From assembly GCA_032622095.1 (NCBI GenBank), contig CP136069.1:4822976-4886975 (forward strand): a stretch of DNA of 64,000 nt. The letters are read 5' to 3'. The position numbers and the translations under genes are program-made. The notes under the pieces are model-generated. The model made no database searches. It saw only the letters and a program-made list of their open reading frames with translations, and was not told where the DNA came from. Shown here in pieces: positions 14,345 to 56,419 of this stretch. The DNA is from Siphonodentalium dalli (Eukaryota > Mollusca > Scaphopoda > Gadilida > Siphonodentaliidae). Numbering within the stretch: position 1 is the stretch's first letter; the number at the start of each line of letters is the position of its first letter.

Positions 14345-14555
14345 CAGTAATGCCCTAAATAATCGACTCCTTAACCACAGCAGAATTATGGGTAACTTTT
14401 CAGGATTTAGTCGGAAATATGGCTTGTTGCCATTCATCGGAAACGTCTCACAGAGCTTTCCGGTGAATGGCAACAAGCCATATTTCCGACTAAATGCTGA
14501 AAAATTGCTCTTGATTCTGCTGTGGTTAAGGAGTCGATTATTTAGGGCATAACTG
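14345..14555. mobile_element. TA-flanked foldback MITE
   Basis: A ~211-bp almost complete palindrome that begins 'cagtaatgccctaaataatc' and ends with its complement '...gggcataactg', flanked by TA on both sides. Each arm is ~100 bp around a short loop. Relatives lie at 18642, 27295, 35160 and 56207, with half copies at 55894 and 62392. CAGT ends and a TA target suit Tc1/mariner-type mobilisation (inference). Confidence 0.75.
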
Positions 14556-18385: not shown

Positions 18386-19352
18386 AGAATTCACCTCTTG
18401 TAATCCAATGAGTATTATGCAATGAAAGAAAACATTTAAACCCCAATACCATCAGTAAACACATATTCAATTTCATAAATGCTCAATCACACCACCATGC
18501 CACAACCATATCTATAACACCACCATGCCACAAGCATATCTATCATAGTATGGTACACATAGTGTCGACGTCCAGATTGGCCACTCATCGCTCAACTATA
18601 CAGCAATCCAATATTCTAACTGAACTAGTGTGTGACATATACAGTAATGCCCCAATTAATCGACTCCATAACCACAGCAGAATTATGGGTAATTTTTCAG
18701 GATTTAGTCGGAAATATGGCAACACTCTGACTAAATCCTGAAAAATTACCCATAATTCTGCTGTGGTTATGGAGTCGATTAATTGGGGCATTACTGTATA
18801 TGTCACACGGTATTTCAGCGAGACATTCTATTCCATGTTAATATACATGTAGATTATATTGCGGGTCCCTTTGGTCACGCTATATATTTATAATGAAATT
18901 CTTATCCTTTGCCTACAATAGAAAGCGTTTCTCAAAATGGACCTCTGTGCATGTGCGAAGAAACAAACCCCCTGTCACCAACTTGGCTGCTAAAGTCAGA
19001 GGTATGAACATGTGACTCATTCGTAGATGCACAATTCTAGTTATTTTTTGCTTTGATCGCCAAATTTCGAACAAAATTTACTTCCCATTTTCTACGCATG
19101 CGCGAAGAAACAGACCCTCTCATCAGTTTGTCTGTCAAAGTCACATGGGTAAACATGTGAGGCGTGTGTTCAAAGTAGAAGTGCAACTCTAGTTGATATG
19201 TGCGTTTATTGAGCTGTAATTTCGTGTCAAATATCGTATGATTTCCAGACCGGTATTCCGGTCTCCCGGGATATAGGAATATAAGGATTGGACCGATATT
19301 CCGGTCTCTCGGGTTCAAAGGGTTAATAATAATTAACATTTGTTATTTACAG
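18386..19352. mobile_element. intron with TA-flanked foldback MITE (18642-18796) and a half TTAA element
   Basis: A shortened (155-bp) foldback MITE lies at 18642-18796, from 'cagtaatgccccaattaatc' to its complement, inside a larger inverted repeat ('gtgtgacatatacag' ... 'ctgtatatgtcacac'). Bases 19225-19325 carry 'gaccggtattccggtct' repeats and end in 'tcaaagggttaa', like one end of a TTAA-type element. Two 'tgcgcgaagaaacaga'-like words (18955, 19090) mark a diverged duplication. Confidence 0.6.
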
Positions 19353-23543: not shown

Positions 23544-23625
23544 TATACCATGCATGGCTGTACTATTTGCGGAACAAAATCAAATGCAGAAGACTTAGCT
23601 CATCATAAACTTCGTCGCAAAGAGC

Positions 23626-24058
23626 CGAGCCTGCAAATAGTGTGTCTGTCATTTGCAGAATGAGTTCCCCAGAGGGTGAATATAGTGATACTATCCCGCA
23701 CAGCGGGCAATTCACCCTCTGGAAACCTCATTCTGCTTAGACCTCATCTTCTGGGAAGTATCTATAGTATCAAATTAACATTGTTTTAGTTACATTTCCC
23801 TTCTAGGAGGTTTCTATATCCCCTAATTTGCAGAAGATCAAATTCATAATGGAGGTGCCCAATGGGTGAATATCACCAACTTCAACTGGGGAACTTCAAT
23901 CTGATCCTAGGTCTGCCATAGCATTTGAGGGCCTTAGCAGAATGAGGTCCCCAGAGGGTGAATTTAGTGATGCTAGCCCGCTGTGTGGGATAGCATCAAT
24001 AAATTCACCCTCTAGGGACCTCATTCTGCAAATGACAGACACGCTATTTGCAGGCTTG
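23626..24058. mobile_element. hairpin-ended hAT-type MITE, full copy, perfect 8-bp duplication
   Basis: Begins 'cgagcctgcaaatag' and ends 'ctatttgcaggcttg', with exact 8-bp flanks 'caaagagc' (23618-23625, 24059-24066). The core matches that of the 6720 copy in the opposite orientation, containing 'cccctaatttgcagaag'. The left hairpin has lost part of one arm near 23700. Confidence 0.85.
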
Positions 24059-25497
24059 CAAAGAGCCATTTACCATTTCCAAAAGCGCTCAATATGATTA
24101 GAATATGATGATACAGTGCAAATGTCAATTTAAAAATACCTTTTTAGAACAGTTTTAAGCATTTATAAAAATCTCACTATTTTTCCCGGAATCTAATATT
24201 TCCGTCAAAGATACGTTACACACTGAACTACATGGTATATTCATCTTTATTCACAAGAAAGGATTCTATGAGATCCGTTTAAAATTTATTATTTTGGTAC
24301 GAAATAGCTTAAGTACCTTTTGAATCATTATTATTATGACGTAGCAGGTCAAGGTCATTTGTCCACTCGTTATGTATATAAGCAAGTGGACCCACAGTAA
24401 ACGGCCTCTTTTTCTCTTGTGACAAGATTCGAAGGGAAGTAAAAAACTAACGCTATGAGAAATGAAACCACATATTATTGTCGGCTTCATTTAACAATTC
24501 CGTTCCACATTTTTTAACTTGTTGTGACATCGGTTCAATTTTGGAAACGACACAATAATTATTAAATTAATATCAGAGTGACAATTTCATTCAATTTCCC
24601 TGTTTTATTTGTTTTAACGCAAATAAAATACACAAACTATATTGTTCTGTTGAAAATTGTGGGTAATTTCCCAACTTCCGGTTTCGGAGCACGTGGTTTA
24701 GAATTCGGAATTAATTTCGGAATTGCACTTCGTCTGTTTATATGCAGCGGTTCACGTGTTGAACTTTCTGGGACAATGCCTATACAGCACAGTTGTTATG
24801 TTATCTCTGTTTCTTGTGGTTTTAGAATGTAAGTACTAGAACATTCAACCAGTGAGACAACATTGGTTTATAACTTTGTTTATGTTGAAATTGGCACGTG
24901 ACAACATTCGTTTTGTTTACGTCGAAATTCTGAAATTGTCACTCACAAATCTGTTTCATGTTGACATATGTAGCAAAATTAGGGATCAGGTTTGGGTCCC
25001 TTTTCGTTTATCTATGAATTAACTCACTTGTGTGGTTTTGCTTGGCTCATAGTTCACTATGAAATAATTTACAATACATTGAGATTGTTTGCCAACAAAA
25101 TAACTTTTTTGTCAGATCAATATGACACAATTTCACAAATAATAATGTGACGCATCAGTCACCTAATTTCATGGTAAATTTTTGGGTCCCTTTCCTGATC
25201 CTTATACATGTAACTGGTCATACCACAGGCTATTTTCTTCCTCGTGTGGCCTCGGTTTCAGTAACCCCATTGTCAAGCAGGTTCAGGCTAATCCAATTCC
25301 TCGTTCCATGCGGACCTTGAGGTGGCCCAGCCGCATACTTCACCATTGAATTCACTGTAGCCAGACGCCATACTGTTCCGAGGGTGGGTTCCAGTGTTCA
25401 CGGATCCGACCATGCTCGCCCGCTCCTGCTGGATCCTACCTCAGATTTCGTCCTCCCACATCCCTTTCACAAGCATGTGCGATGTACAAAATCTGTC

Positions 25498-25682
25498 AGC
25501 CCCCTAGGGAGCAACTTAACTGGTATCGCATCACAATTTGCCATCCAAACTTGGATAATAGCCATGCAATTTGGTATGAATTTTATGTCAACTTTGAGAT
25601 TGAGAACAAAATACTATCTCATTATGTCCATGTGAGGCTATTTATTTGATAATCAAAATTTCCAAGTAAGTTGCTCCCTGGC
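25498..25682. repeat. short inverted-repeat insertion inside the DIRS-like element
   Basis: Arms 'agggagcaactta' and 'taagttgctccct' face each other about 150 bp apart. It may be a small MITE; flanking duplications were not established. Confidence 0.35.
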
Positions 25683-27294
25683 ATCTACCCTCGGGTGGAA
25701 TTGCTGTTAAGACCATTTCCCGGGACTCTGCATGACCTTCAAATGCTTGCTATTTGGCGGGAGGCAAGTTGTACCGGTGTAGCCACTGGGGCGGTAGCGT
25801 TTCATAGTCACAATCTTGGGCTCGTGTCATCTAAAAGTTTCGGTTCATTCTATGTATATATGACTGCTCTGCCCATTCAACATGTAGTTCAATGCAGATT
25901 GTGTGCATTTAGAAACACTAGTGGGGTGTCATCCTGTTGGTCAGGTTTCTGGATTCGTGTCGTGACCTAGTAGGTCGCCGCTGCCCTACTGGCTACACTT
26001 CTGCTTCCTGTCAGGGTTTAAGCTGGCTCCGGTTAGGGGGGTAATCAGTCTGCTCATTAATCACTCCTCGATGTCTCTTCCAAGGCTTACACAGTCCTGT
26101 TTATTCAGTTTTTTACTCTAAAGATAACAAAATCCATTGCTTGGATCTGACGATTCCACATTTAGATTACATTTCTAATTAACAGGGCTACTTGCCATCC
26201 AACGCGAATCCTGATTCTCACTTGGATTTCGAAGAGCTCTTGCTGCTTTTTCTTGTCTGTAACAAAGAACTAAGTTAATTGCAAGGCATCGAGGGGTTGC
26301 AGACGCAGTTTCTCTCCTCGGATATGGGTCCTGGGGGGTTCGAGGGGGGGACCGAGCACTGGGCCACCAGACAGCGCGCCGTCTAATGCCGAGTAATCTC
26401 GGGTGCTGTCTATAACAGTGAACATAGCGCAGTCTTCCGCCGGGGCAGAGACTTTTAACAGACACTCAATTTGTTTTTCATGCAGTTTTACCTGGGCTAA
26501 AACTTATTACCTTTCCACCTGTCACTGATTAGCATTGTCCTTTGTTTATGGGTGACCGTTCGATTCTTCTAGTGGTAAATTTACACAGATCATCTTTCAC
26601 CCTTACTACGGTTCCATGGGGCATAACACCAAGCCTTGGATTCCTTGTAAGATTTTGCGAGCATCACTCGGGCCTTCTGCGGTGTTGGGCTGGGTTTTTT
26701 CTGCGAACCAAGTTGGGAATCATATTTCTCTTTGCGTAGAACATTCATCATCTGCGTAGAACATTCATCATCTTTTGACTCTACAGCCTTAGGACAATCC
26801 CAATGAGCTTTCCCTGTAGTACCAGGATTAGATCTCTTCGCGCTCAATATTATGGCTTTATAGTTTGGGTTCGCTTATCGGGTTACGATATAGACAATTG
26901 AACTCGCGCAATCTTCTGGGGTGGCGGGTACGGTGGGTAATAACCTGTTCCATGGGAACAGGTGCATTTCAGAACTTTGAGCCCTGCGTCATGCCAACAA
27001 AACTCATTGATGCCCTGCTTGATGGAGTTGGGCGTTACTGTACTCAGTGCTCCTTTTTTGACAGGCTGTCTTGAATTACTACACAACAGACGAGCTATTC
27101 GTCTAACGGCGCACATGAGGCAATCTTTGTTGGCGACAGAGTCTCTGCCCGCGGGGAGGAACTAGGGTCCGGGTCCTCGCTGTATGAGCGGCAGACAACC
27201 GTCCGACCATACACACATGTGATTGGTCTTCAGTAAAATGTGCCCTTCTGTTCACATTACTGGCGTACCTCCTTGACCATGTCGAATGGGTGTA

Positions 27295-27507
27295 CAGTGG
27301 TGCTCGGGGTGTTTGGCCGCTTGGCTGCGGCGGAGTTGTGGGTGGTTTTTCGGGATTTGGTCGGTGGTGTGGCTTGTTGCTGTTCATCGGGGGGCTCTCG
27401 ACGAGAGCTTTCCGATGGGTGGCCGCGGGCCGTGTTTCCGGTTGGGTCCTGGAGGGTTGCCCGTGGTTCTGCTGTGGTTGGGTGGTCGGTTGCTTTGGGC
27501 ATTGCTG
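27295..27507. mobile_element. A-to-G hypermutated foldback MITE
   Basis: This 213-bp segment aligns without gaps to the foldback MITE at 35160-35372 (also 213 bp). About 50 positions that are A in the relatives are G here, in both arms, while fewer than 20 other differences occur and T-to-C is rare. Base pairing of the two arms is kept through G.U wobbles: in the outer 32 pairs I found one mismatch. The left TA flank is intact; the expected right TA reads TG. Loss of A removes stop codons and leaves open frames in all + frames and on the - strand; these are by-products, not genes. Confidence 0.8.
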
Positions 27508-29012
27508 TGTACTTTCGCCTTGGTGGATGAGGTGAGCTACACACAGCTCATGGACCCGGGCCCTTCGTCTTTTAAGAACAATCAGTGCATAACAAGAAGA
27601 TACAATCTTCTTGTTATCAACATTCTGGTTGTTTTTAGACCTTAATCATCCATGGCCTGTTCTTTCTTTCTGATTGTTTGGAGTTGTTCCATCACGATGG
27701 GTCTCCTCCTTCTACACATTTTCTAATAAGTTACATGCAGACTGCAAAGTATTCCTTTCAATCAGGTGTACATGTAACTGCATACACTATTGGATTGACA
27801 GGCTGTGGAAGTAGTTTACAACTCAGGACTCTCCGAACTTTTTCTTCTCGATTGTTTCGATACCAGAAAACATTTTGGGACTTTCCAAGTCATTTAACGC
27901 TCTTGATCGACTTAGTTACCTGGGGTTTTTGTTACCAGTTTCCAGCCTTAATGTAAATTCCGATCAGGGGCATTGACCGACGGAATATGGCCTCTGTCTG
28001 GTGTATTTATTAACTGAAGTAAAATACTGTCATTTGACGGTCAGTCAGAAAATACTTATTTTGCGCCTTGATCAGTTTGTCCATTTGGGGTTGCACATTT
28101 ACTGACAGTCGGTCGCAGACCTTACAAGCATGATGCATGATACATGAGTTGGTGGTATGTTTCTAATCGTCTTTACAGTTGCTACTTCCTCGTGTTACAT
28201 CCAGATTGACCATTCAGGTAACAATAGATTTCCTTCCTCTGGTGTCGAAACGTCGGGATAGCTTGGTTCGTTCAGTCACATACCATGGAGCTGGGTGACC
28301 TATGCTTTCTGCATATAACCCGCTTACTCCAGGGAGGAGGTGGCACATGCATGTACCTGCATATGAGATTTCACAATTACAGGTTTGTCTGACTTCAGAA
28401 CCAAAGGGGGGAGGTGCAGAGTTTCAGCCATTGGGCTTATTCTCCCACTTTCTCCACTCTACCTGGTAGCATCAATCAAATCTGCAAATCAGTACCTTTT
28501 GATCCATTTGTTGCTAAAAAAACTCAGCAGGTTCAAAAGAATTATTCTCAACTAAAATACAATAGTATCTCATTCCTCGCAGCCTCCTCCTATGAGTTGA
28601 TTCTACCATGTAGTTCAGTGTGTAACGTATCTTTGACGGGAATATAACATTTTCAATAGAAAATACATATTCCCTAATAAGATACTTACACACTGAACTT
28701 ACATGTCCCTCCCAAATTGGGATTTTCCCTCCCCGCTGCTCGGTCACACCCCTCGAATCTTGTAAGAGGATAAAAAGAGGCCGTTTACTGTGGGTCCACT
28801 TGCTTATATACATAACGAGTGGACAAATGACCTTGACCTGCTACGTCATAATAATAATGATTCAAAAGGTACTTAAGCTATTTCGTACCAAAATAATAAA
28901 TTTTAAACGGATCTCATAGAATCCTTTCTTGTGAATAAAGATGAATATACCATGTAGTTCAGTGTGTAAGTATCTTATTAGGGAATATGTATTTTCTATT
29001 GAAAATGTTATT

Positions 29013-29640
29013 TTTAGCTCACTTGAGACGAAGTCTCCGGTGGAACTATAGTCATTACTCCTCGTCCGTCGTCCGTCCATCTGTCCATCCGTCAACAATT
29101 CTTTGAACATTTCTCCTCTGGAACCGTAAGACCGAATTGGTTCATATTTGGTGTGGATGTTCCCTAGGTGACTCTCATTCAGATTTGTTCAAATGAGGTT
29201 ACTGGGTCAAATAGTAGCGAAACCAGGACCATATAACTATTCCTCCATAGTAATTCTTACAACGACTTCTTGTTCAGAACCATTGGGCCGATTTAGCTAA
29301 TATTTGGTATGGAGGGTCCTTGGGTGACTGGTGTTCAGATTTGTTCAAATGAGGTCACCCGGTCAATTAGTTGAGAAACCAGGGCCATAACTCATAGTAA
29401 TTCTTAGAATGACTTTTTCTCAAAAAACATTGGGCCGATTTAGCTTATATTTGGTATGGGGGCACCTTGGGTGCTCAAATTCTGGACAGAAAATCCTTAA
29501 TAAGAAGCATTTACTTTGGCTCTAACTGTATGCGTGGTATGCATACACATGTCAAGTGAAATCTGACATTTTTATAAACATTCCCTGGAGATCTGCTAGA
29601 AGTAATTAATTCCTAATTACAACAATCTATCATGTATTGT
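29013..29640. other. intron, dispersed 'cgtccgtc' repeat
   Basis: Begins right after the DIRS-like element with 'agctcacttgagacgaagtc' and continues with 'tccgtccatctgtcc' and two to three diverged units containing 'tttggtatgg' and 'cagatttgttcaaatgagg'. The same units continue from 30170 to 30800. No coding. Confidence 0.5.
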
Positions 29641-29644
29641 TCAA

Positions 29645-30099
29645 ATCTTTCAACAGGGCAAATAGCATGCCTGTCATTTGCAGAATGAGGTCCCCAGAGG
29701 GTGAATTTAGTGATGCTATCCCACACAGCGTGCTAGCATCACCAAATTCACCCTCTGGAGACCTCATTCTGCTTAGGCCTCATCTTCTGGGAAGTATCTA
29801 TAGTATCAAATTAACATTGTTGTTCGTTACATTTCGCTTCTAGGAATTTCTATATCCCCTAATTTGCAGAAAATAAAATTCATAATTGAAGTGACCAATG
29901 GGTGAACATCAACTTCAACTGGGGAACTTCAATCTTATCCTAGATCTGCCATAGCAGTTGAGGGCCTTAGCAGAATGAGGTCTCCATGGGGTGAATTTAG
30001 TGATGCTAGCCCACTGTGCAGGATAGCGTCACTAAATTCACTCTCTGGGGACCTCGTTCTGCAAATGACAGACACACTATCACACTATTTCAAGGCTTG
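29645..30099. mobile_element. hairpin-ended hAT-type MITE, full copy
   Basis: Both hairpins and the core are present in the same orientation as 23626. The left end starts near 'gggcaaatagcatgcctgtc' and the right end is 'ctatttcaaggcttg'. No matching 8-bp flanks were found, so one end may have been rearranged. A lone end 'actatttgcaggcttg' follows at about 30150-30165. Confidence 0.7.
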
Positions 30100-32092
30100 A
30101 TTGTATAATACATTGTGTTGCTTGAGGCCAGGCACATACAATGTAGGAATATGCACACTATTTGCAGGCTTGCTCCTTTGGTGATTGTGATTCAGATTTG
30201 TTCAATCAGGGTCACCAGGTCAAGTAGGTGCAAGGCCAGCTACATTACTCTTTCTCTCCATAGTAATTCATGATGTGTCTTCTATGCAAGAATCAAATGG
30301 CCTATTTTGCTTATATTTGGTATGAAATTACCTTGGATGACAGATTTGTGAAAATAGGATCACAAAGTCAAATAAGGGCAGAGCCAGAGACTTAACTATT
30401 TTACTACACAGTAATTCTTAAAATATGTTTTCAAGAACTAGTTGGCTTATTTAGCATGGAATGTTCTTCCTTGACTGCAATTCAGATTTTTTTTAATGGG
30501 GTCACCTGGTCAAATAGGGGCCAAACGAAGGACAGTTTCCCTCTTAATATGCTTCCTTCACAAGGGCCATCAGGTCTATTTTACTGATATTTATGATATG
30601 TAGGAAGGGTACTTTGGTGTCTGGGATTCAAATTTATTCAGATGGGGTCACCAGGTTAAATAGGGTGGGACCAGGGACATAACTATATGTCTCTATAGTA
30701 ATTCTTAAAATGTCTTCTCAAGAGAGGTTGGACTATTTAGCTTACATATAGTATGGAGCAATCAGGAGGATCCTTTAGTGACTGATATTCAGATTTGTTA
30801 AAATGAGGTCAACCTGTCAAGAAATGGCGGGGCTATGGGGAGTTAACACTTTTGTGTCTATTAAAATCATTGAAATACCAAATTCATTAAAACATCTACC
30901 TTGGAACCACCTGACTGATTAATCTGACATACGTGTATTGTGTTTTGGGTCCATGGATAATTGAGCTTCAAACATGTCTAAATGGTTTTAGAAAAAGGCG
31001 CTTGTGAGATTGGAAATTTCCAACAATTGAGAAAGTTTGAGGTGTCAGTTGTGAAATTCCAACCTAAGACTTGGGAGTCTGGAGCCCGGTCCGGAGGGGA
31101 TATGTTGAGCTGGAGGAGGAGGGGGGTGATCAGTAGTGTACAGTTGGTAATTTCAAGGTTGATTTTCACCAATCTACATACGTGAAGTCTCTCTAGCCAC
31201 ATATCCTGTTTAGAGGTACTTCTTTTAAAGTGATTATGAAAAGTTCTGACTGTTGTGGTCTCCAGAGTCCCAGTCTTATCAGTCTTTGCAGTCTGGTGAG
31301 CGACCCCACAGTCTTTACAGTCTGGTGAGCGACCCCACAGTCTTTACAGTCTGGTGAGCGACCCCACAGTCTTTGCAGTCTTGTGAGCGACCCCACAGTC
31401 ATTGACTGTCTTGTTTAAAGGGAATCTCACAATTTCTGACATTATGTAGACTGTGCACACTATGTACTCTAGCTTTAATAATGAAATCGCACAAACAATA
31501 AAACCTATTTGTGATAGTGTGTGGAAGCATAATAAAATTCTTATTAAGATAACAGAAACATGCATAACCAATGAACTCAGTATAAAGAGCGTTTATATTC
31601 AACTCGCGTGGAACCCAATAGCTGTTAGTGCTTTATATATCATGCATCAGTATATATATCTTATTTGCGCAAATTTAACTACTTATAACTGTTATGGATG
31701 GGATAATACCAGTAAAATATATGGTAAACTCGGTACCCATTATACAGAAGGACGTGGGACTTTCTTGCTTATTTTATTTCAACTTTCTGACTGATTCTGA
31801 AACTGCCTATACAGCAGGGTGCTCTGCCTATCATTAGCTTATGTCAGCTTCCGGTGGGTAAGACATGATACCTCTTGTCATGGACACAAGTGTCATTGGC
31901 CATCCCCCTTACTCACATATGTGGGTCATAAAAAGCATAATATCAGATGGAAGCATGCACTACAGAGTGTCGTCTGCTCAGTCTGTGTGGGGCTCTCTAT
32001 GGGATAATTAAAAAAAAAAATTAAAAAAATGTAAGAAAAAGTAAAAATTAATATAGAATAAAAAACAATTGATAAAAAATGATAAAAAATTG
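30100..32092. repeat. intron with diverged tandem units and a 29-bp minisatellite
   Basis: Bases 30170-30800 repeat a ~170-bp unit ('cagatttgtt', 'ggtcacc(t/a)ggtcaa', 'tagtaattcttaaaatg'). Bases 31265-31402 hold about five copies of 'tctttacagtctggtgagcg'+'accccacag'. Bases about 31945-32003 are an inverted copy of the short 13046-type repeat. No exon is recognised. Confidence 0.6.
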
Positions 32093-34972: not shown

Positions 34973-35817
34973 TGAGTGGGCTGGATAGGTCCATAGAGGA
35001 TGATTTATGGTGAAAGCAATCGACTTTTCAATGACCGAAATAGTGCTATGTATTTGATTATGCGATGCGTCTTATAAATTTGATATATCTGTCGTGACTA
35101 TCATGTGATAATGGAGAATAATTATAGTGCCAGCAGTATTTCTTCGATGTTGACATATACAGTAATGCCCTAAATAATCGAATCCTTAACCACAGCAGAA
35201 TTATGGGTAATTTTTCAGGATTTAGTCGGAAATATGGCTTGTTGCCATTCATCGGAAAGCTCTCAGTGAGAGCTTTCCGATGAATGGCAACAATCCAATT
35301 TTCTGACTACATCCTGAAAAATTACCCATAATTCTGCTGTGGTTAAGGAGTTGATTATTTAGGGCATTACTGTACATCGTGTCAAACACGAACCGTCTCA
35401 AAGATGATTATATCTACCCTATTCCTACACTATCTACCCTATTCCTACACTATTCCTGTGTTATATCTCTATATCAGACATGTTTATTTCTGTCAATAGG
35501 ACCAACTTACTACAAATCTGACGGCTGGTTCATTTGAGACAAAGACCAGTCAAAATGCACAAAATTCAGCAACAACTTTCTTAGTTTGCAACAACTTTCT
35601 TAGTTTGTAGTTCAATGAAATGAAAGTTAAATTTTTATATAAATATACATTTATCTCCAATTGGATACAAAATGGTGAATGCAATCCATTGTTCACATAC
35701 CGAAGTAGTGATATGTATTTGATGATGTCTTTTAAAATTGATGTTTATAAGTCGGTGACAATAATGTGCACTGAAACTTGTTATAACGCTAAAAATATTT
35801 CTTTAACTTTGAGTTTA
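34973..35817 (+). other. 3' region of the KYAT3-like gene with foldback MITE
   Basis: No canonical AATAAA was found close to the stop codon. Bases 34990-35155 and 35668-35815 are diverged copies of one sequence ('atgtatttgat', 'gatgcgtctt'/'gatgtctttt'). Between them lies the foldback MITE at 35160-35372 (213 bp, TA flanks), the best reference for the altered copy at 27295. 'ctaccctattcctacactat' is repeated at 35415-35455. Confidence 0.6.
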
Positions 35818-38140: not shown

Positions 38141-40304
38141 TCCTGCTACAAAATTATTCATCAGCATATATACTCTTATAAGCCAGAATATACCTGAAAT
38201 TTAGTCATATATTGATATTTTCATTCAGCTATTATTACTTCCGCTTCTTCCCATAGCGTTTTGATAGTCACGTCTTCTAAGTCAATTTGTTCAGTGACAA
38301 TCCTGAAGATTCTGTCATATTAACAATGTTTAGTCTAATGAATAACCACACTCAACAGAGTGCCACAGATAATCTGTCTCGCGGCTAAATTGTGAATTTG
38401 AATAACTAAATTAAGATATGGCTTACTTGGCAGATTTCGTCTAAGATTCAGCACACTTTGAATTAATCAATATGAATGATGTTATTCTTGGAATTGCTTT
38501 CGATTTGAATAAATAAAAGATGGCCACCAAGGTCTCGTTACCACAATAGGGTGCCCAACTGTTAGGTCTGAGAAGTTACATTTGAAGTACATACACAGAA
38601 CGAAACAAGTTTGTTGATACGGGTCAAGTGTTTAGCTTGGAAGGAAAGAACGAGAGACGCAGCCTCAAGTTCTTTCCTTCTGCAATGGCACAAGTGCTGT
38701 ATCAACAAACCTACACACATGTTGTTCTGTGTTTATTACACATCACCACCTGTCCTAGAATCCATGAATTAAAAAATATAGGCTTACCTGGGCTTACAGC
38801 GTTTATTTAGTCAAATACAGGACCTGTTTTGTCATGTGTGGTTTTTTCATGGTTGAAGTGAACGTCGTGTATGTCATTACAGATATTTGTGAGTCTGTTT
38901 GCGATGCTGGCAGTATATTTGTTAGGAACTTATGTTTCACTTGCTAACCTGCAGAAATGCACAATATAATCTAATGAGCTATTAATATGTTATGAACCAT
39001 TGATTCTTAAGTATACCATACTACTATTTCATGTTAATGTTGATTTTTGAGTCATGTTAAGAATTTATAAATCCTGATCCGGTGACATTTCCTATAATAA
39101 TCATAACCAAAATATTATATTTTCTTGCAATTAAAAGATGCCACCAGGGTTCTGAAAATCCCCTGAAAATTGTGGAGACTTTGATCTTGATGCTTTCTGT
39201 TGCCAGGAAACTGAGTTTGGCAACTAGCAGTGTTTCCTTGTTTTTATCGCTGACATTCTCTTCCTAGAATCTGTAAATAAAAATACAACCAGACTCCCCT
39301 GGTTTATTTAGGCACACACAGGGCTTGTTTTGTCGTGTGTGATGATGCTTTTATTTTATAGTTCTGGTTTGATGGTTGAGGGGAACACGTGTTCCATAGA
39401 GATTTGTCTATATGGAACAGCGAGAACACTGTAATTCTTGGAACAAGCTTGTAATAAACAGAACACAACACACATCTTAAACTCAAATCTTTTATCGATT
39501 TAGCTGCGGACAGTGCAGGGATATATTTCTCCATAGCTGACAAGTTAAATGTGACTGCGCAACGAGTTCAATAAAAGATTTGAGATTCTGATAGAAGTTG
39601 TGTTCTGTATTTATTCAACACCCTTGAATCAAGTAAGGTCAATCCTTGACTATCACTTTCATTGATACTATAATTGTATAACAATAACGTTAATGCTACA
39701 TCATGCTGAAGTTGTTTCACATGAAAGTGTGTGAAATAAGTCTCTCTTATAAAAACATTGTTCTTGTAATCCTGAAGGCTTAATTTGTCTTCTACTTAAA
39801 TCTATATAGTTTCTATCATGGTTTTATTGGTTGTAAATTGTTGAGATTTCAGATATATTTACTGCAGATGCACATTGACAATAAAATATAATTTCAAAAG
39901 TTTACCTTTCCCTGTTTTCTCTTCTGGGCAGCAACATATTTTTTATAAATCCCGATCTCAGGACTTCAAATAGCTAATTTGTGTATAAAATACAGATAAA
40001 ACTGAAGAATATGTATAATATTTGTCTATAAGGCGTGACCAATTTAATTACTTGTTTTACGAACACCGCCGATAGCTTTTTCCGCCAAAACCGAATAAAA
40101 ATAATACACTTTTCTTCCCAGAGAAAAAATTACGTTTTCCGTATTTTAGTGATTTCGTTCCGCCTACTAGTTGTGTATTCCGGATTATAACGCTCCGTAT
40201 TCCGGCCTTCCGAGTTATGCGTTACGGTTCCGGTTCCGTGACCTTTTGTTTACATCTGTCAGCGTGCATAACTTCCGTTGTTAGTGAAACATGTCCGAAA
40301 TAGA
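38141..40304. other. intergenic region upstream of the DDE-like gene
   Basis: No coding exon is recognised. There are diverged repeats ('gcacacacagggcttgtttt' near 39312 resembles 38820; 'ttgtgtt(c/t)tg(t/g)' words), consistent with an old duplication of ~500 bp. The promoter of the gene at 40305 should lie at its right end, but no clear TATA box is assigned. A short upstream frame, ATG at 40291 to a stop at 40332, overlaps the chosen start out of frame. Confidence 0.4.
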
Positions 40305-40913
40305 ATGGCGACTGCAGATTACTTCAGCTTAAAAATACTAACAGACACGCAACGGACGCTGAAGCAAAAGCTAGTTCAATTGAGTCTTTCTGATGTAGTA
40401 TCCGTGACATTTAGTGAGGTGGGCGATGACTTTAAAGTGGATAAAATCACGGTTAAAAACGGTAGTGACTCAACTGATGGCCACGAAGTTCAGCCAAACA
40501 CCCCCCTCAATATTGTTTCCCGATTTGGCGCATCATGCATCATTCTCCACGTCTCAAAGCTGTCAGTTGGTGATGGTGTGTCAGTTTCTAAGAAGACTTT
40601 GGATGCATTCGATGTAATGATGTCGGCACGAAGTGACTCTTGTTACCCAGATAAAGTCGAATTCAAAATAAACAGAAGAGATTTTGATCTACACAACGAT
40701 GTCATCGAACTGTTCAAACAAAAACACTATTCATTTATACCTGAAAACGTCCACACCATAGGAAAACTTGTGATAAAAACTCTGGTGGATGTATTGTGGT
40801 GGATGACCCCACACCATGACAAACTCTTGTCCAGAAACATCAAAATCCCTGAGATGTTCCAACAGTTCACAGGTTATTACGACCATAGGAAGGCGCACAA
40901 AGCTGCACCAAAG
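40305..40913 (+). CDS. uncharacterised DDE-like protein, exon 1
   Basis: Exon 1 encodes 203 residues from ATG at 40305 (context agaATGg), MATADYFSLKILTDTQRTLK to HRKAHKAAPK, and ends at 'aag|gtgaga'. The chosen ATG is preferred over the out-of-frame one at 40291. The protein (about 1,090 residues with exon 2) resembles, as I recall, a large family of unnamed proteins in corals, sponges and molluscs. No function is known to me for this N-terminal part, which is acidic/mixed without membrane segments. The reading frame stays open past the donor to 41105, but the donor, phase and exon 2 acceptor fit better. Confidence 0.7.
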
Positions 40914-41846
40914 GTGAGAAATCATATCAGCTTGATAACTGTTGAAGAAATCCCGAATGTCCTGAATAAATACACGTATACATGCAGTCGAAACAAACTC
41001 TACATATATCGTGACGCTATGTACTATATACAGCGTAGAGTTCGTTTCGAACTCGTATACATGTATTTGTCGCAGAAAAATGGCATCACTGATTCAGTAA
41101 AATAAAATATAGGAAATTGGGGTGGGGCAAGCGCCTAGGAAAGGAAGTGTTGTCCAATTTTTTAAAGGGGGAGGGGGTCCATATTAAAATAAAATATGGG
41201 GAATTGGGGTGGGGCAAGATTCCTGGCAAGCGCCTAGGAAAGGAAGTTTTGTCCAATGTTTTAAAGGGGGAGGGGTCCATATTAAAATAAAATATGGGAA
41301 ACGGGTGGGGCAAGATTGCCTTTTGGACATATTCTTAAAATATACTTCTTTGTTTTTGATTTTATTGATGTTAGAGCATCTGAATGGAGGTACATGTATT
41401 TGTGGTCTGTATACTTAGTACCGGTACTTCTGTCTTCAAGTAATTTAATATGATGAACTATTTAGATACTTCTATAAATTCAGAGAAAGAATATTAAATA
41501 CAGCATCTAAAGTAACATACAGTTACGCTCTATGTAAGTGGCAATTTCAAGGCGGTAAACTGCATTGATCAATGCATCGCCAACGCGGTGCTCATTCGTT
41601 GACGATGAATTGGCACTGTGTTGGCGATGCATTGTAACTGCTGCCGACAATGCATTGACGATGTTGATTGCTGCAGTGCCAACACATGGTCAATGCATTG
41701 ACGTTGCCACTTACATTGAGTTGTACTGTACATGTAAAATACAATTCTTGTGAAACATCAAATGGGTCAATTCTACATACAAAAAGAAAACATCTGTCAG
41801 GCTGCATGTAAAAATATTAATATTTTCATTCATTATAATATTTCAG
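40914..41846 (+). other. intron of the DDE-like gene with tandem repeat and MITE
   Basis: Bases 41100-41315 hold two and a half copies of a ~90-bp unit ('aaaataaaatatggg', 'gcgcctaggaaaggaagt', 'aaagggggaggg'). Bases 41520-41728 are a 209-bp MITE with inverted ends around 'atgtaagtggcaa', CAGT termini and TA flanks (41518-41519, 41729-41730), and internal 'gcattgacgatg' words. The acceptor is 'aatatttcag' at 41846. Confidence 0.75.
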
Positions 41847-44512
41847 ATAGAGTCTTCTGTCCTGAAGAGCCACATTGATCACATGACTGAACTGTTGATG
41901 ATGCCGTGGATGCACAAGTATGATGATCTCCGTGTTGCTATTGGTGAGATGACATCAGGTCTCCAGAAGTATTATGACTTCCTGACTAAGCAGAAAGAAA
42001 GATCGACAACTACACACGATTCGGAAGCTCCCTTGAGAGCGCCAGATAAAAACTTTTCACTGGAGAATATCGAGACTGTTCCAGTTGTGGAACAACAGTA
42101 TAAGGATCTGGATGAGTTTGTGGCTGAATCGGAACCATATACTCCTATTCCACTTTTTGAATATGAACCTGATGACAAGGCTGCTAGAAGGAAGTATATT
42201 GATCATCTCAAACTGACTCACAAAGTTCGAAAGTATTCATACTATACTGGAAACTACTTGGGGACAGTTCGCTTTATATGGAAGCTTCCAGAGAACAGTG
42301 ATGACTGCACGGATGAGAAAACTCTTGGCGCAATCAGTCGCATTCATAAATCTCTACCAATGTACACCACGCGAGCCATGAAAAAAGAGTTCTATGAAAA
42401 ATATCAGCACTCTGCGAAAATACAGCCTGGACTTCTAAGAAGTATGTACAAGTTCTTAACAAATGATTCAAGTGCGGCAGAATCAACTCATCAGCGGGAA
42501 ATTGATGAACGACTTGATAAATTCTTATCGCTCGATGATCCAGAGGCTATATGGGATTTGCGAAAATTAAATGGCGACTTCAACAGCACAAAATTTGATA
42601 AATTTGGGATGAAATGGACACTTATTTCAACGAGTTGACTCTCCCTGTTCAAGAGCGACGACACGGAGAACACCTGTACCTGCCATTTGCTATCAGCGTT
42701 GAACAATTAGTAGAGACGATAACTGAGCGCCTACCAAATGGGACCCCGACTCCGTGCGCAGAATGGGTCCGATTACAGTTTTGGCCTACAGATCCAACAT
42801 CAAAAAGGGCGTTTCATCACACTGGAAGATTCAACGTAAAATTCAAGCTGCAAACGCGACAGATTAGGGGCAATCATATTGATGCCCATTATTGTGGGTG
42901 TCAGTTATTATATTTGAAACATTTCGCTGTGATGTATTCCGAGTTCAGTGATTTCTTGTGGATGGATGATAAAGCTATTGTCCCTATTGGAGAGCCTGAA
43001 AGACCAGTCAGTACTAATGTTCGAGTCCACAATCCCTCTCTGGTTCCTGTTTCAAATGTCAGTACACTTAGTGCATTGGACCACGATTATAATGTGTGTG
43101 GTGCGATTCCATCTGTCGCACTCAAATGTGACATTCCGAAGGTTGCTTCAGATTCATTCTTCAGTGGAGTTGTTCATCTGACTGTGAAGGACAAAGTATT
43201 CAGTGCATCTAATGCCATGAGGCATGGCTGTGAATTAAGGCACACACTGCGAGAATGCTATTCTGAAAATGACTCAAACAAGCCCATCTTAATCTGCTAC
43301 ACCGACGGGGGTCCTGACCATAGGACCACATATGGTTCAGTGCAAATGGCTTCCATCGCAGTTTTCCTCCACCTGGATCTGGACATGTTGGTTACAGCTA
43401 GAACAGCGCCAATGGCCAGCTGGGCCAACCTTGCTGAGCGAGCTAACTCTATTTTAAACTTGGCCCTGCAAAATGTTGCTCTGGAACGAAGTAAAATGGC
43501 CGAAGATCTGGAACTAAAAATGAAAAGGATCGGTTCTTTAGATGATGCACGAAAGTTGTCAAAACGTTATCCAGAATTTAAAGATGGTTTAATAAATTCT
43601 GTTCAGCCGGTCCTAAAACTGTTAGAGAGTCGATTCTCTAAGCTCAAACTAAAAGGTGAAAGCTTCAAAATAAATGAATCTGCTACTGATGCTGAGGTTG
43701 AAGAGTTCTTCCAAAAGGTGAAGGACGTTATTGACGACAAATTGGACTCTAGTCATCTCACTGCTAATGTGTTGAGTAAATCAAAGAGACTTGCTGATTT
43801 CATGCAGAAACATTGTAGAAAGCGTAATTACATATTCCAGGTGAAAAAATGCCCTAAGGATGCCATCAAAGACTGTGTGTATTGTAGTCTCAACCCACCA
43901 AGATTACCTGATGATGTCTTCAATGAGTTGGAATTTGTGCCTGACCCAACTTTCGCAGCACCTGGTGATGATAAGTACTTACCATTCCCTGAAATATACA
44001 GGACGGCAACTACAGATGCAAATCGTCCGTCTGCGTTATCCGTGACTGACTCGACCAAAAACGATATTGCCAACAGGAAACTGTTAACTGCTTGCAGGGT
44101 ACGTGATGCAGTGCCCTGTGTGGAGTGCGATAAACCAAGATGTGTTTATTCAGAAACTAAACTGAAAAAGTCTGAACTGAATGCTCTGAAGGAGCTAAAG
44201 GAGAAGGAGACATACACATGTGGTGCGACACTGTTTGAAGGTGCACTGCATTCAACAGTGGTTGCGAAAGAAAACATAAATTGTAGTTCACAGATGGAGA
44301 CATCATACTATGGCGGGAAGACTTGTAAGCTTGAGCCTGTCTGCTTCCATTGCGGAATTTCAAAATCCGATGACTTTGCCATGGATGATGACATTCAGAA
44401 ACTCCAGTCGGAATATTCAATTGTGCGGCCCATTTGTGTGAGATGCAAGGACTCTGGTAAAGAAGTAGCTGTGAGAGGAAAGCGAAATGTTAAGAAATTG
44501 CGCACAAAATGA
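41847..44512 (+). CDS. uncharacterised DDE/RNase H-like protein, exon 2 (one frameshift)
   Basis: The exon joins exon 1 in phase 0 (IESSVLKSHIDHMTELL...). The first frame ends at 42638 and the second, open to the stop at 44512, takes over between 42602 and 42635. A one-base change near 'aaatttggg' would give a smooth FWDEMDTYF junction. In the second part (counted from MDTYF at 42614), D118/D119 in FLWMDDKAIVPIGEP, D231 in CYTDGGPDHR and E275 in NLAERANSILN have the order of a DDE triad. Before them stands WVRLQFWP. The C-terminal third has CxxC pairs (DCVYC, PCVEC, CFHC, ICVRC) that could bind zinc, and a basic tail. Likely a transposase-derived or transposase-like nuclear protein; activity is unknown. 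Confidence 0.7.
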
Positions 44513-49934: not shown

Positions 49935-51851
49935 TTACAATACTTGTGAAAAACTGTTCAGTGCCTTCTGCAATTTTAATGGCGTTTCAGCCATGAGAAC
50001 GGTGTCATCTGCGTATAAGATAATGAATAATTTGACGTACATCTTCAAGTGAGTATCAATATCTCTTGACATTTTAATTAGTCCTTCACCACCTTCTGAC
50101 TTAAGAAAATCTTCCAGATCGTTCAGATAAAGCGAGAATAATAGGGGTGATAGGTTTCCACCTTGTCTTACCCCAGATAAGCAAGGGAAACAATCGGATA
50201 TTTGATCGCCCAATCTAACTTTCGACTTAATGTTAGTGTACATATTTTTTATTATTGTGAGCAATTTACCATTTATGTTAATATTCGAAAGTTTGTACCA
50301 AAGTGCTTGTCTCCATACCTTGTCAAATGCTTTCTCGAAGTCTATAAAAGCGCAATACAAATTCCTATTGAATGCCTTTGTGATTTCCGATAGTAAGTGT
50401 AAAACAAATATGTTTTCAGTTGTGGAGTAGCCTTTTCTGAAACCTGCCTGGTTCTCGCGCATAACTTCATTTTCTTCAATATAAGTATATAATCTATTTG
50501 ATAAAATCTTTGTAAATAGTTTCCCTAAGCAGCTCAAAAGGGTAATGGGTCTATAATTCTTGGGATTTCCCTTATCACCTTTATTCTTATAAAGAGGGAT
50601 GATAGTTCCGATACCCCATATCTCTGGGACACAACCTGATTCAAAAACTAAATTAAATGTATTACAATAAATGTCTATGAGGGTGTCGGAGGATGCCTTG
50701 ATATATTCATTGAGAATTCCATCCTCGCCTGGGGATTTCTTATATTTTAAACTCTTAATAGCGGTCGTTACTTCTTCTCTAGTTATTGGTCTATTTAAGT
50801 GGTCGTTCGTAGTGATTACCTCATTGTTCATATGTAAGTCTCCAGTAATTGTCTCAGAATTTAGTACTCGAAAATGTTCTTCCAGTAAGTCTATTTTTAT
50901 TACGTTATGCGTATTTTTATCTCGTTTATTAAGTAAGGACCAAAATTTCCTTGAGTTTTCTTTTTTAAGTTTCGAAATTTCATACGTGATATTTTCTCTG
51001 TGCAATGTTATTGCATTATCCATTGTGTGTTTATATTTAATAGACATTTCGCGTACAATTCGTCGTGTACTTTCGTTTTTCTGTTGCTTGTGACATCGCA
51101 CGGCTTTACGATATTCCTTGCGCACTTTGTGGCATATGGAGTTAAACCAAGGTTTATTTTTATTTCTTCGTTTTTTTGGTTTTCTAATGTTATGTCCAAA
51201 AGTGTCATACGACGACTTAAGAAGTATATGAGATATCCTGCCAACTATTTCATTTACTTGTATATTACCAGCGGTAGAGGGCGAACAATTATTTAACAAA
51301 CATCGGAGTTCAGAAATTTCCATAGGGTCCATGTTCCATATATACTCAGTTGATTTGGAGGAATCACATTTAGGGGTAAAAATATTATAAAATTTGTCCT
51401 CTCGTTTATCAGTAGGAGTATTTATGTGCACTGATAATTTGGTTGAGATACGTTTGTGTACATCTGAGAATAATTTATTTGTCTCACCAACTGCGAAATC
51501 TAAGGTCAGAGGCAATGCATTTAAAGAACAAATCATGTAGTCTACAACGGAGGCGTCGCGGCAAGTATAATTTCCTATTTCTCGGTCAGTTCCTAATCGT
51601 CCGTTTAAAATTACTAATTTATTGTTATGACACACACTCAGTAATTGGCGACCACAATTATTAGTCACTCTATCCATACTATGTCTCTTTAGAGGTAAAC
51701 CACACTCCTCAAGCACTGCTTCGGTAGTCATATCATTATAGTCTGTATCAATATCATTTTCTTCATCGGGAGTGTAGTCTAAATGCTGAGACGTACGAGC
51801 ATTAAAATCACCAGTTATAAAAATGTTATCATATCGTTCCCCCATCTGCAA
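49935..51851 (-). pseudogene. LINE ORF2 fragment: endonuclease end and reverse transcriptase
   Basis: A 638-codon open frame. Residues 10-140 carry the end of an apurinic-type endonuclease (FITGDFNART, later VVDYMICSL and FSDVHKRI). The linker has basic KPKKRRNKNKPWFN. Then RT blocks follow: KSPGEDGI, NYRPITLLSCLGKLFTKIL, ENQAGFRKGYSTTEN, AFIDFEKAFDKV, GVRQGGNLSPLLFSLYLNDL and the catalytic YADDTVLMAE. The frame ends in FSQVL because of one extra T in a T run; the neighbouring frame continues YCKKWKLHVNIEKTK to NYLG at about 49800. So the enzyme core is intact but the gene is broken. Confidence 0.88.
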
Positions 51852-56206: not shown

Positions 56207-56419
56207 CAGTAATGCTCTAAGTAAGCGACTTCTTAACCACAGCAGAATTATGGGTAACTTTTCAGGATTTAGTCGGAAATATGGCTTGTTGCCATTCATC
56301 GGAAAGCTCTCGGGGAGAGCTTTACGATAAATGGCAACAAGCCATATTTCCGACTAAATCCTGAAAAGTTACCCATAATTCTCATGAGGTTAAAGTGTCA
56401 ATTACTTAGGGCATTACTA
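56207..56419. mobile_element. foldback MITE, full copy
   Basis: Both arms are present, 213 bp, from 'cagtaatgctctaagtaag' to '...gggcattacta' with TA flanks. It has ordinary base composition and serves as a further control for the altered copy at 27295. Confidence 0.8.

Follow-up and report, generated by a model that had tools for sequence, protein, structure and literature searches.

Clusters of A-to-G changes linked to ADAR hyperediting have been described in the retroviruses RAV-1, ALV, HTLV-2, STLV-3 and BLV, and excerpts of PMC8586724 and PMC8025556 report them in some integrated proviruses (the papers below are likewise cited from excerpts). Here, we describe a comparable pattern in the genome of the scaphopod mollusc Siphonodentalium dalli. 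It lies in M2, a foldback miniature inverted-repeat transposable element (MITE) at positions 27295 to 27507 of the window, by which we mean the whole 64,000-nucleotide stretch analysed (assembly GCA_032622095.1, contig CP136069.1, positions 4,822,976 to 4,886,975, forward strand). M2 is nested in a larger repeat, P, which by its anatomy would, like the retroviruses, be a reverse-transcribing element. Whereas the retroviral cases concern exogenous viruses and are rare in the sequences reported, the pattern in P occupies dozens of genomic sites, belongs to a non-viral element, is confined to a nested DNA-transposon hairpin, and characterizes the founder of an amplified family.

Several other systems bear on this comparison. 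APOBEC editing of retrotransposons also leaves deaminase-type clusters, with candidates in mouse IAP traces (PMC2873906), although the change in M2 runs opposite to G-to-A and occurs in a hairpin that forms a duplex. Across Metazoa, repeat-derived double-stranded RNA undergoes A-to-I hyper-editing, with the same type of substrate and the same 5' G depletion (PMC5625713, PMC6651903), and is known at the RNA level, whereas the M2 edit is in DNA. The mollusc DIRS1-like elements LgDIRS and AcaDIRS share with P inverted terminal repeats, an internal complementary region on the 3' side, a right extension and the lack of a target-site duplication; mollusc elements of this type measure 4.7-5.8 kb, and four of the five tabled have ATT/ATT termini (PMC3266345). 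Unlike them, P has no reverse transcriptase, RNase H, methyltransferase or tyrosine recombinase domain in the pieces tested. Finally, the hypothesis of deaminase-driven reverse-transcription mutagenesis predicts strand-biased A-to-G changes from A-to-I-edited RNA (PMC11817618); it concerns somatic repair and cancer, while P would be a case with densely clustered changes within a single element family, where reverse transcription has a plausible origin. Given the established retroviral precedent, the conversion of edited RNA into DNA is of a known kind. As far as we have seen, the new aspects are the non-viral genomic element, the nested DNA-transposon hairpin as target, the amplified edited founder, and the fact that a single lineage carries both edited hairpins. 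Among the papers listed in the literature searches, which lacked most subscription journals, we saw none reporting that an edited hairpin had become fixed in an amplified genomic element of non-viral type.

The 213-bp M2 aligns without gaps with the family member at 35160-35372. Among their 72 differences, 49 are A-to-G (26 in the left half and 23 in the right), accompanied by five T-to-C, five C-to-T and 13 others. The initial annotation, made from the sequence of the window, had counted about 50 such changes in both arms on one strand of a base-for-base alignment, with T-to-C rare and other changes few, and this description was accurate. Compared with a consensus built from the other six window copies, M2 has 69 changes, with 51 of 65 A positions reading G and four of 64 T positions reading C (A-to-G versus T-to-C, binomial p = 2e-11). 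The consensus of 26 genome copies gives 67 changes (50 A-to-G, 3 T-to-C), and comparison of the M2 consensus of 30 element copies with the family consensus gives 66 (A-to-G at 51 of 63 A, T-to-C 3). Since the six window copies and part copies, including that at 35160-35372, have A in common at most edited sites, the G in M2 is the derived state. Dense A-to-G change on one strand with few T-to-C changes is the footprint of ADAR hyper-editing, and it is present both in M2 and in a second hairpin of the same element line, M1. The family behaves as a TA-targeting foldback MITE, with TA on both sides of all four window copies examined besides M2 and of 24 of the 26 genome copies (the exceptions are L005 and L007). 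The right duplication of M2 reads TG where the four other two-ended window copies read TA, as had been annotated.

In the family consensus, 104 of 106 mirror pairs are Watson-Crick. The edited M2 consensus has 49 Watson-Crick pairs, 55 G.T pairs and no A.C pairs, and hence no pair with an opposite-strand signature; L055, which has a one-base indel, is left out of the site count in this comparison. Preserved pairing had initially been offered as evidence in its own right; it follows automatically from one-strand A-to-G change in a palindrome and adds nothing separate. In a fold scan of both strands, G.U pairs make up 46% of the M2 hairpin, and the next highest value among the 45 best hairpins per strand is 23%. 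The predicted fold energy of the MITE hairpin changes from -188 to -134 kcal/mol after editing.

The local context of the changes also resembles that of known ADAR substrates. Adenosines left unedited favour a 5' G, an ADAR signature, to a moderate degree: for M1 and M2 pooled, edited and unedited sites number 34 and 5 after A, 28 and 1 after T, 18 and 5 after C, and 15 and 9 after G (5' G versus the rest, pooled p = 0.007; M2 alone, p = 0.012). This is the 5' G depletion that had been proposed as a check, and it came out as predicted. The metazoan survey in PMC5625713 reports such depletion, together with enrichment of a 3' A at edited sites in invertebrates, and GA is a weak target of oyster and abalone ADAR1 (PMC6651903). 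By 3' neighbour, the edited fractions in M2 are 19/21 for A, 16/20 for T, 7/7 for C and 9/12 for G. Edits are fewer at the helix ends and loop of M2 than in its core (4 of 8 sites versus 47 of 52, p = 0.013, in zones set after the sites were seen), as expected for ADAR on double-stranded RNA. Pairing of the flanks outside the MITE is weakly better than in shuffles (7/300) and is a supporting detail only. ADAR-type deaminase domains exist in the genome, where PF02137 gives 13 matches resembling exons, spread over four places (best E-value 2e-60), and some of the pieces contain stops. PF02137 covers related deaminases as well, so that the genes at these four places may be of either type. Together, spectrum, neighbour context and strand suggest that the enzyme would be an ADAR.

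Unedited copies and window-wide scans provide the background for this pattern. The 26 genome copies together carry 6 A-to-G and 23 T-to-C changes, 16 of the latter in one array, as against 50 and 3 in M2; it should be noted that not all are independent, as ten (L004, L009-L017) have one common flank at C6:218.35-218.57 Mb, and that one (L001) is the window copy at 35160. This tabulation of substitution types across genome copies had been suggested initially, and its result bears out the skew. An all-against-all scan of the window for clusters of one-direction mismatches yielded 19 A/G and 5 mirror C/T alignments and none in each of the four transversion classes; the M2 locus takes part in all 24. 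Neither this type of scan nor the fold scan found anything else resembling M2 in the window. A control scan that covered the window together with the loci fetched by that stage produced 106 rows, with alignments below 80 columns dropped and some palindromic M2 places counted in both orientations. Of these, 55 have at least 10 A-to-G plus T-to-C changes: 53 represent M2 in P copies, and the other two are M1 of L063 and L061, the latter a gappy alignment with 8 A-to-G and 2 T-to-C. The remaining 51 rows have at most three of either change. They include a MITE fragment (108-223) in L067, a relative of P without M2, which is unedited (2 A-to-G, 2 T-to-C).

Several further observations concern the MITE family as a whole. 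The L067 fragment presumably inserted after integration of L067 and offers a natural control for editing. The ten same-flank copies occupy a 0.2-Mb stretch and are probably a segmental array. MITE core patterns had no exact match in the viral and genome contig collections searched, and searches of phage records, Rfam and tRNAs gave no result for the MITE. For hallmarks of a processed copy around it, the longest + strand A run is 7 and there is no convincing target-site duplication. CpG decay and cytosine deamination were considered as causes of the M2 pattern and rejected. A CpG-chronology test was not significant (p = 0.32).

M2 is embedded in an amplified element. In a search with edited M2, 40 of 1793 first-look candidates were scored (97-100% identity) and 30 of these were fetched. 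All 30 belong to the same larger element, with flanks in common with the window at about 25.8-29.0 kb, some with breaks. In a second search 40 of 379 first-look candidates were scored, none being fetched as loci at that stage. The edited left junction of M2 occurs at 64 places, 52 of them exact, a count that reflects a match over 22 bases only. The edited sequence had initially been placed at a single locus, a view that these matches overturn.

The anatomy of this element, P, is that of a DIRS1-like retrotransposon, with inverted terminal repeats, an internal complementary region near the 3' end, and NTT termini without a target-site duplication. Positions 24208-24436 match 28749-28976 in inverted orientation at 97% (98% over a 221-nt core). 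In the internal complementary region, located just inside the right terminal repeat, inverse complements of both the left start (24190-24246, 89%) and the right end (28951-29014, 97%) are joined. The same arrangement is found in L059, the other copy examined, and the window copy and L059, the two copies read at both ends, each have ATT termini and no target-site duplication. The inverted repeats were at first thought to be DNA transposon ends, an idea dropped once the internal complementary region was recognised. None of the ten + strand reading-frame pieces of P tested (out of 28 listed on both strands) has a Pfam match, including to the reverse transcriptase, RNase H, methyltransferase and tyrosine recombinase genes of DIRS1-like elements. 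Because these pieces contain no coding domain, P would be at most a non-autonomous relative of DIRS1-like elements. In DIRS elements the 3' side is identified by the internal complementary region (PMC8969392, PMC3266345), and the position of this region at the right end of P makes + the sense strand, which is also the strand of the A-to-G changes. P is flanked by another hairpin-rich repeat family, partly inverted, at 23600-24070 and 29640-30110, whose hairpins are not G.U-rich.

Relatives of P without M2 allow the order of events to be examined. An empty-site pattern with three mismatches allowed matched six places (reversed control, none), all relatives of P. Between their consensus and that of 28 P copies (L055 and L058 left out of the alignment), the flanks differ by 62 changes, 10 of them A-to-G, whereas the hairpin has 51 A-to-G among 66 (Fisher p = 1.6e-12). 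The 22 changes in the left 235 nt include 5 A-to-G, 3 G-to-A, 5 C-to-T and no T-to-C, and the 40 in the right 600 nt include 5 A-to-G, 4 G-to-A, 3 C-to-T and 1 T-to-C. The A-to-G burst is confined to the hairpin able to form double-stranded RNA, though the paired 221-bp repeats of P are unedited. Immediately left of M2, all six empty-site relatives and L069 read GAGTA (GAGTATA in the longer reading), L068 and L070 read GGGTA (GGGTATA), and the window reads GGGTGTA, indicating that the A-to-G changes at 27289 and 27292 were acquired stepwise. L069 contains full M1 and an M2 with 48 A-to-G among 60 changes, and its right duplication is already TG. The M2 of L069 and the P consensus have 54 changes in common, 47 of them A-to-G. 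This implies that the burst preceded much other divergence and suggests one founder for M2; a single M2 founder state is seen in the copies read.

A second MITE, M1, was edited in the same element line. The window retains only a remnant of it. In L063 the full M1 precedes the M2 site by about 270 bases and has 38 to 42 A-to-G changes, depending on the alignment, and 2 T-to-C. The 2-of-3 majority of the full-length copies has 70 changes, with 44 A-to-G and 3 T-to-C, on the same strand as M2. The edit pattern of M1 is distinct: with M1 of L063, 38 sites are common to both hairpins, 4 are private to M1 and 13 to M2. With the M1 majority, the sites unedited in both hairpins are limited to positions 40, 110, 112 and 207, and a G precedes three of them. 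On these patterns we take M1 and M2 to represent separate editing events. The alternative, that M2 is an already edited M1 moved as DNA, would reduce two events to one, is compatible with the reading preferred below, and seems to us unlikely. M1 and M2 do belong to one family, and their same-base changes other than A-to-G coincide at 3 sites (of 26 and 15), slightly above the 1.8 sites of any base expected; positions 20 and 202 are invariant in 23 ordinary copies in the common direction, and position 191 is variable (13 T, 10 G). Yet the edit patterns differ, most of the other changes are private, and the A of the right duplication, which lies outside the MITE, is already G in the early copy L069. 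Four of the empty-site relatives (L062, L064, L065, L066) carry an insertion of about 0.9-1 kb within the M1 MITE, with MITE-end sequence on its flanks.

From spectrum, strand and hairpin confinement, the best-supported reading is a one-strand, hairpin-confined ADAR-like A-to-G event written into DNA, as the initial annotation had proposed. In our view it is likely that nested hairpins in the transcripts of a DIRS-like retroelement were hyper-edited by ADAR, that reverse transcription fixed the edits, and that an edited founder was then amplified. The foldback MITE would have entered a TA site inside the non-autonomous P by DNA transposition. Upon sense transcription of P, the MITE would form an almost perfect duplex of about 105 bp, in which a host ADAR would deaminate about three quarters or more of the adenosines. 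The edited RNA would be reverse transcribed, with inosine read as G, and the resulting cDNA would integrate. The founder would finally amplify to dozens of copies, one of them in the window, the same route having been followed earlier for M1.

Several observations weigh against this scenario. The argument for RNA-mediated mobility of P is anatomical, with no Pfam domain in the ten pieces tested; no autonomous partner was found, though no search aimed at one was completed, and M1 is represented by three sequences. The terminal repeats of 221 bp are likewise able to pair in RNA, yet they remain 97-98% complementary and unedited; to accommodate this, the model has to invoke either their distance or their renewal in the course of replication. 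The left flank has a mild A-to-G excess of its own, both in the consensus (5 A-to-G, two of them at 27289 and 27292 beside the hairpin, and 0 T-to-C) and against single relatives (3 to 8 versus 0 to 2), and the bases of the empty-site relatives are assumed to be ancestral. Both A-to-G changes next to M2 are later than the founder event, and the A of the left duplication (5' T) and other paired flank adenosines are unedited. The 5' neighbour effect is of moderate strength, perhaps reflecting near-saturated editing, and three of the nine unedited A in M2 follow C and are possible CpG reversions. A P copy with unedited M2 was not found in one pattern search, which gave two places, both unrelated to P, and which demanded a left-flank T absent from older copies such as L069; such an intermediate may exist.

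Two other routes retain an editing enzyme but account less well for the sense strand, the recurrence and the effect at helix ends. The first is improbable in our view: ADAR would edit the + DNA strand within a hybrid that MITE RNA forms with the element, and fixation would need no reverse transcription. The DNA strand of RNA:DNA hybrids is edited in vitro by the ADAR catalytic domain, as cited in PMC8448848 and PMC7955049, and the same spectrum and neighbour effect would be expected. Hybrid editing leaves the two events in one element line and the agreement with the sense strand unexplained, however, and the reduced editing at helix ends and loop, in the zones set afterwards, favours a hairpin over a linear hybrid. 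For the second route, which we regard as quite improbable, an edited transcript would template the repair of a break at the palindrome; the edit would thereby be written in place, and the element would later be amplified by other means. Long DNA palindromes break readily. RNA-templated repair that carries A-to-I changes into DNA has been proposed (PMC11817618), but this route requires extra steps, and reverse transcription would be supplied by the retrotransposon anatomy of the host element.

Explanations without editing fare worse. It is very improbable that M2 represents ordinary decay or a GC-rich MITE subfamily, its bias being due to drift, gene conversion or transcription-linked mutation. 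An amplified subfamily with equal A-to-G and T-to-C had been named at the outset as the pattern that would speak against editing. The first part is found, as many loci carry the sequence, and the mild A-to-G excess of the left flank fits as well; the second is not, with 51 A-to-G against 3 T-to-C, 10 A-to-G among 62 flank changes and other copies unskewed. Moreover, all 30 fetched copies lie in one larger element rather than as free MITEs, and the strand asymmetry and empty-site relatives likewise speak against it. A sequencing or assembly artefact at the inverted repeat is hardly credible, for although Nanopore accuracy falls after inverted-duplicate junctions (PMC7229812), such error starts at the junction while the two halves of M2 are alike (26 and 23), other strong window hairpins are not G.U-rich, and 64 places agree on the edited left junction.

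If the preferred reading of ADAR editing followed by reverse transcription holds, P offers an ordered case of RNA-editing information entering a genome, from empty site through inserted hairpin and edited founder to amplification, another edited hairpin being present in that element line. Inheritance of A-to-I changes via reverse transcription, long argued, becomes testable by scanning genomes for A-to-G-skewed hairpins in retroelements, and past ADAR activity and the transcription strand of elements could be read from DNA. More tentatively, hyper-editing may act as a gate, such that only heavily ADAR-edited transcripts of hairpin-carrying retroelements yield successful new copies. This possibility includes the premise that a retroelement which has acquired an almost perfect hairpin resists reverse transcription or falls to silencing directed at double-stranded RNA. 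Both nested MITEs traced through amplification, M1 and M2, are edited, and the predicted fold is weakened. Were it true, hairpins nested in retroelements would routinely be rewritten from A to G, and ADAR would influence the success of different element families.

Coordinates in the window of P, its nested hairpins and unedited members of the MITE family
Feature	Position	Strand	Basis or remark
P, repeat of about 4.8 kb	24198..29012	+	DIRS1-like anatomy, termini ATT...ATT
P left inverted terminal repeat	24198..24436	+	inverted match to right end
P right inverted terminal repeat and right extension	28749..29012	+	
P internal complementary region	28595..28705	+	complementary to both element ends
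M1, deletion remnant of older hyper-edited MITE	27005..27040 (36 bases)	+	full length in L063, L068, L069
Left flank GGGTG with two A-to-G	27288..27292	+	predicted pairing with right flank
M2 left TA target-site duplication, unedited	27293..27294	+	sequence read, comparison with other copies
M2, foldback MITE hyper-edited A-to-G in both arms	27295..27507	+ (sense)	copy comparisons, mirror pairs
M2 right target-site duplication, TA to TG	27508..27509	+	TG already in early copy L069
Unedited family member, comparison copy of the initial annotation	35160..35372	+	
Unedited family member	14345..14555	+	
Unedited family member	56207..56418	+	
Unedited family member	18642..18796	+	shortened internally

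Other features of the window include a reverse transcriptase at 49935-51851, whose best named match is from Mytilus edulis (42% identity), and three long + strand reading frames (275, 251 and 632 aa) at 40278-44512, which have no Pfam match at E 0.001 and are possibly parts of an unknown mobile element. The shortened MITE copy at 18642-18796 sits in a palindromic target, with all 10 positions beyond the TA on each side complementary, and the share of the 5253 window TA sites that reach 10 complementary flank positions rounds to 0.0000. These flanks hint at a preference of the family for palindromic TA targets, which the other copies reflect weakly.
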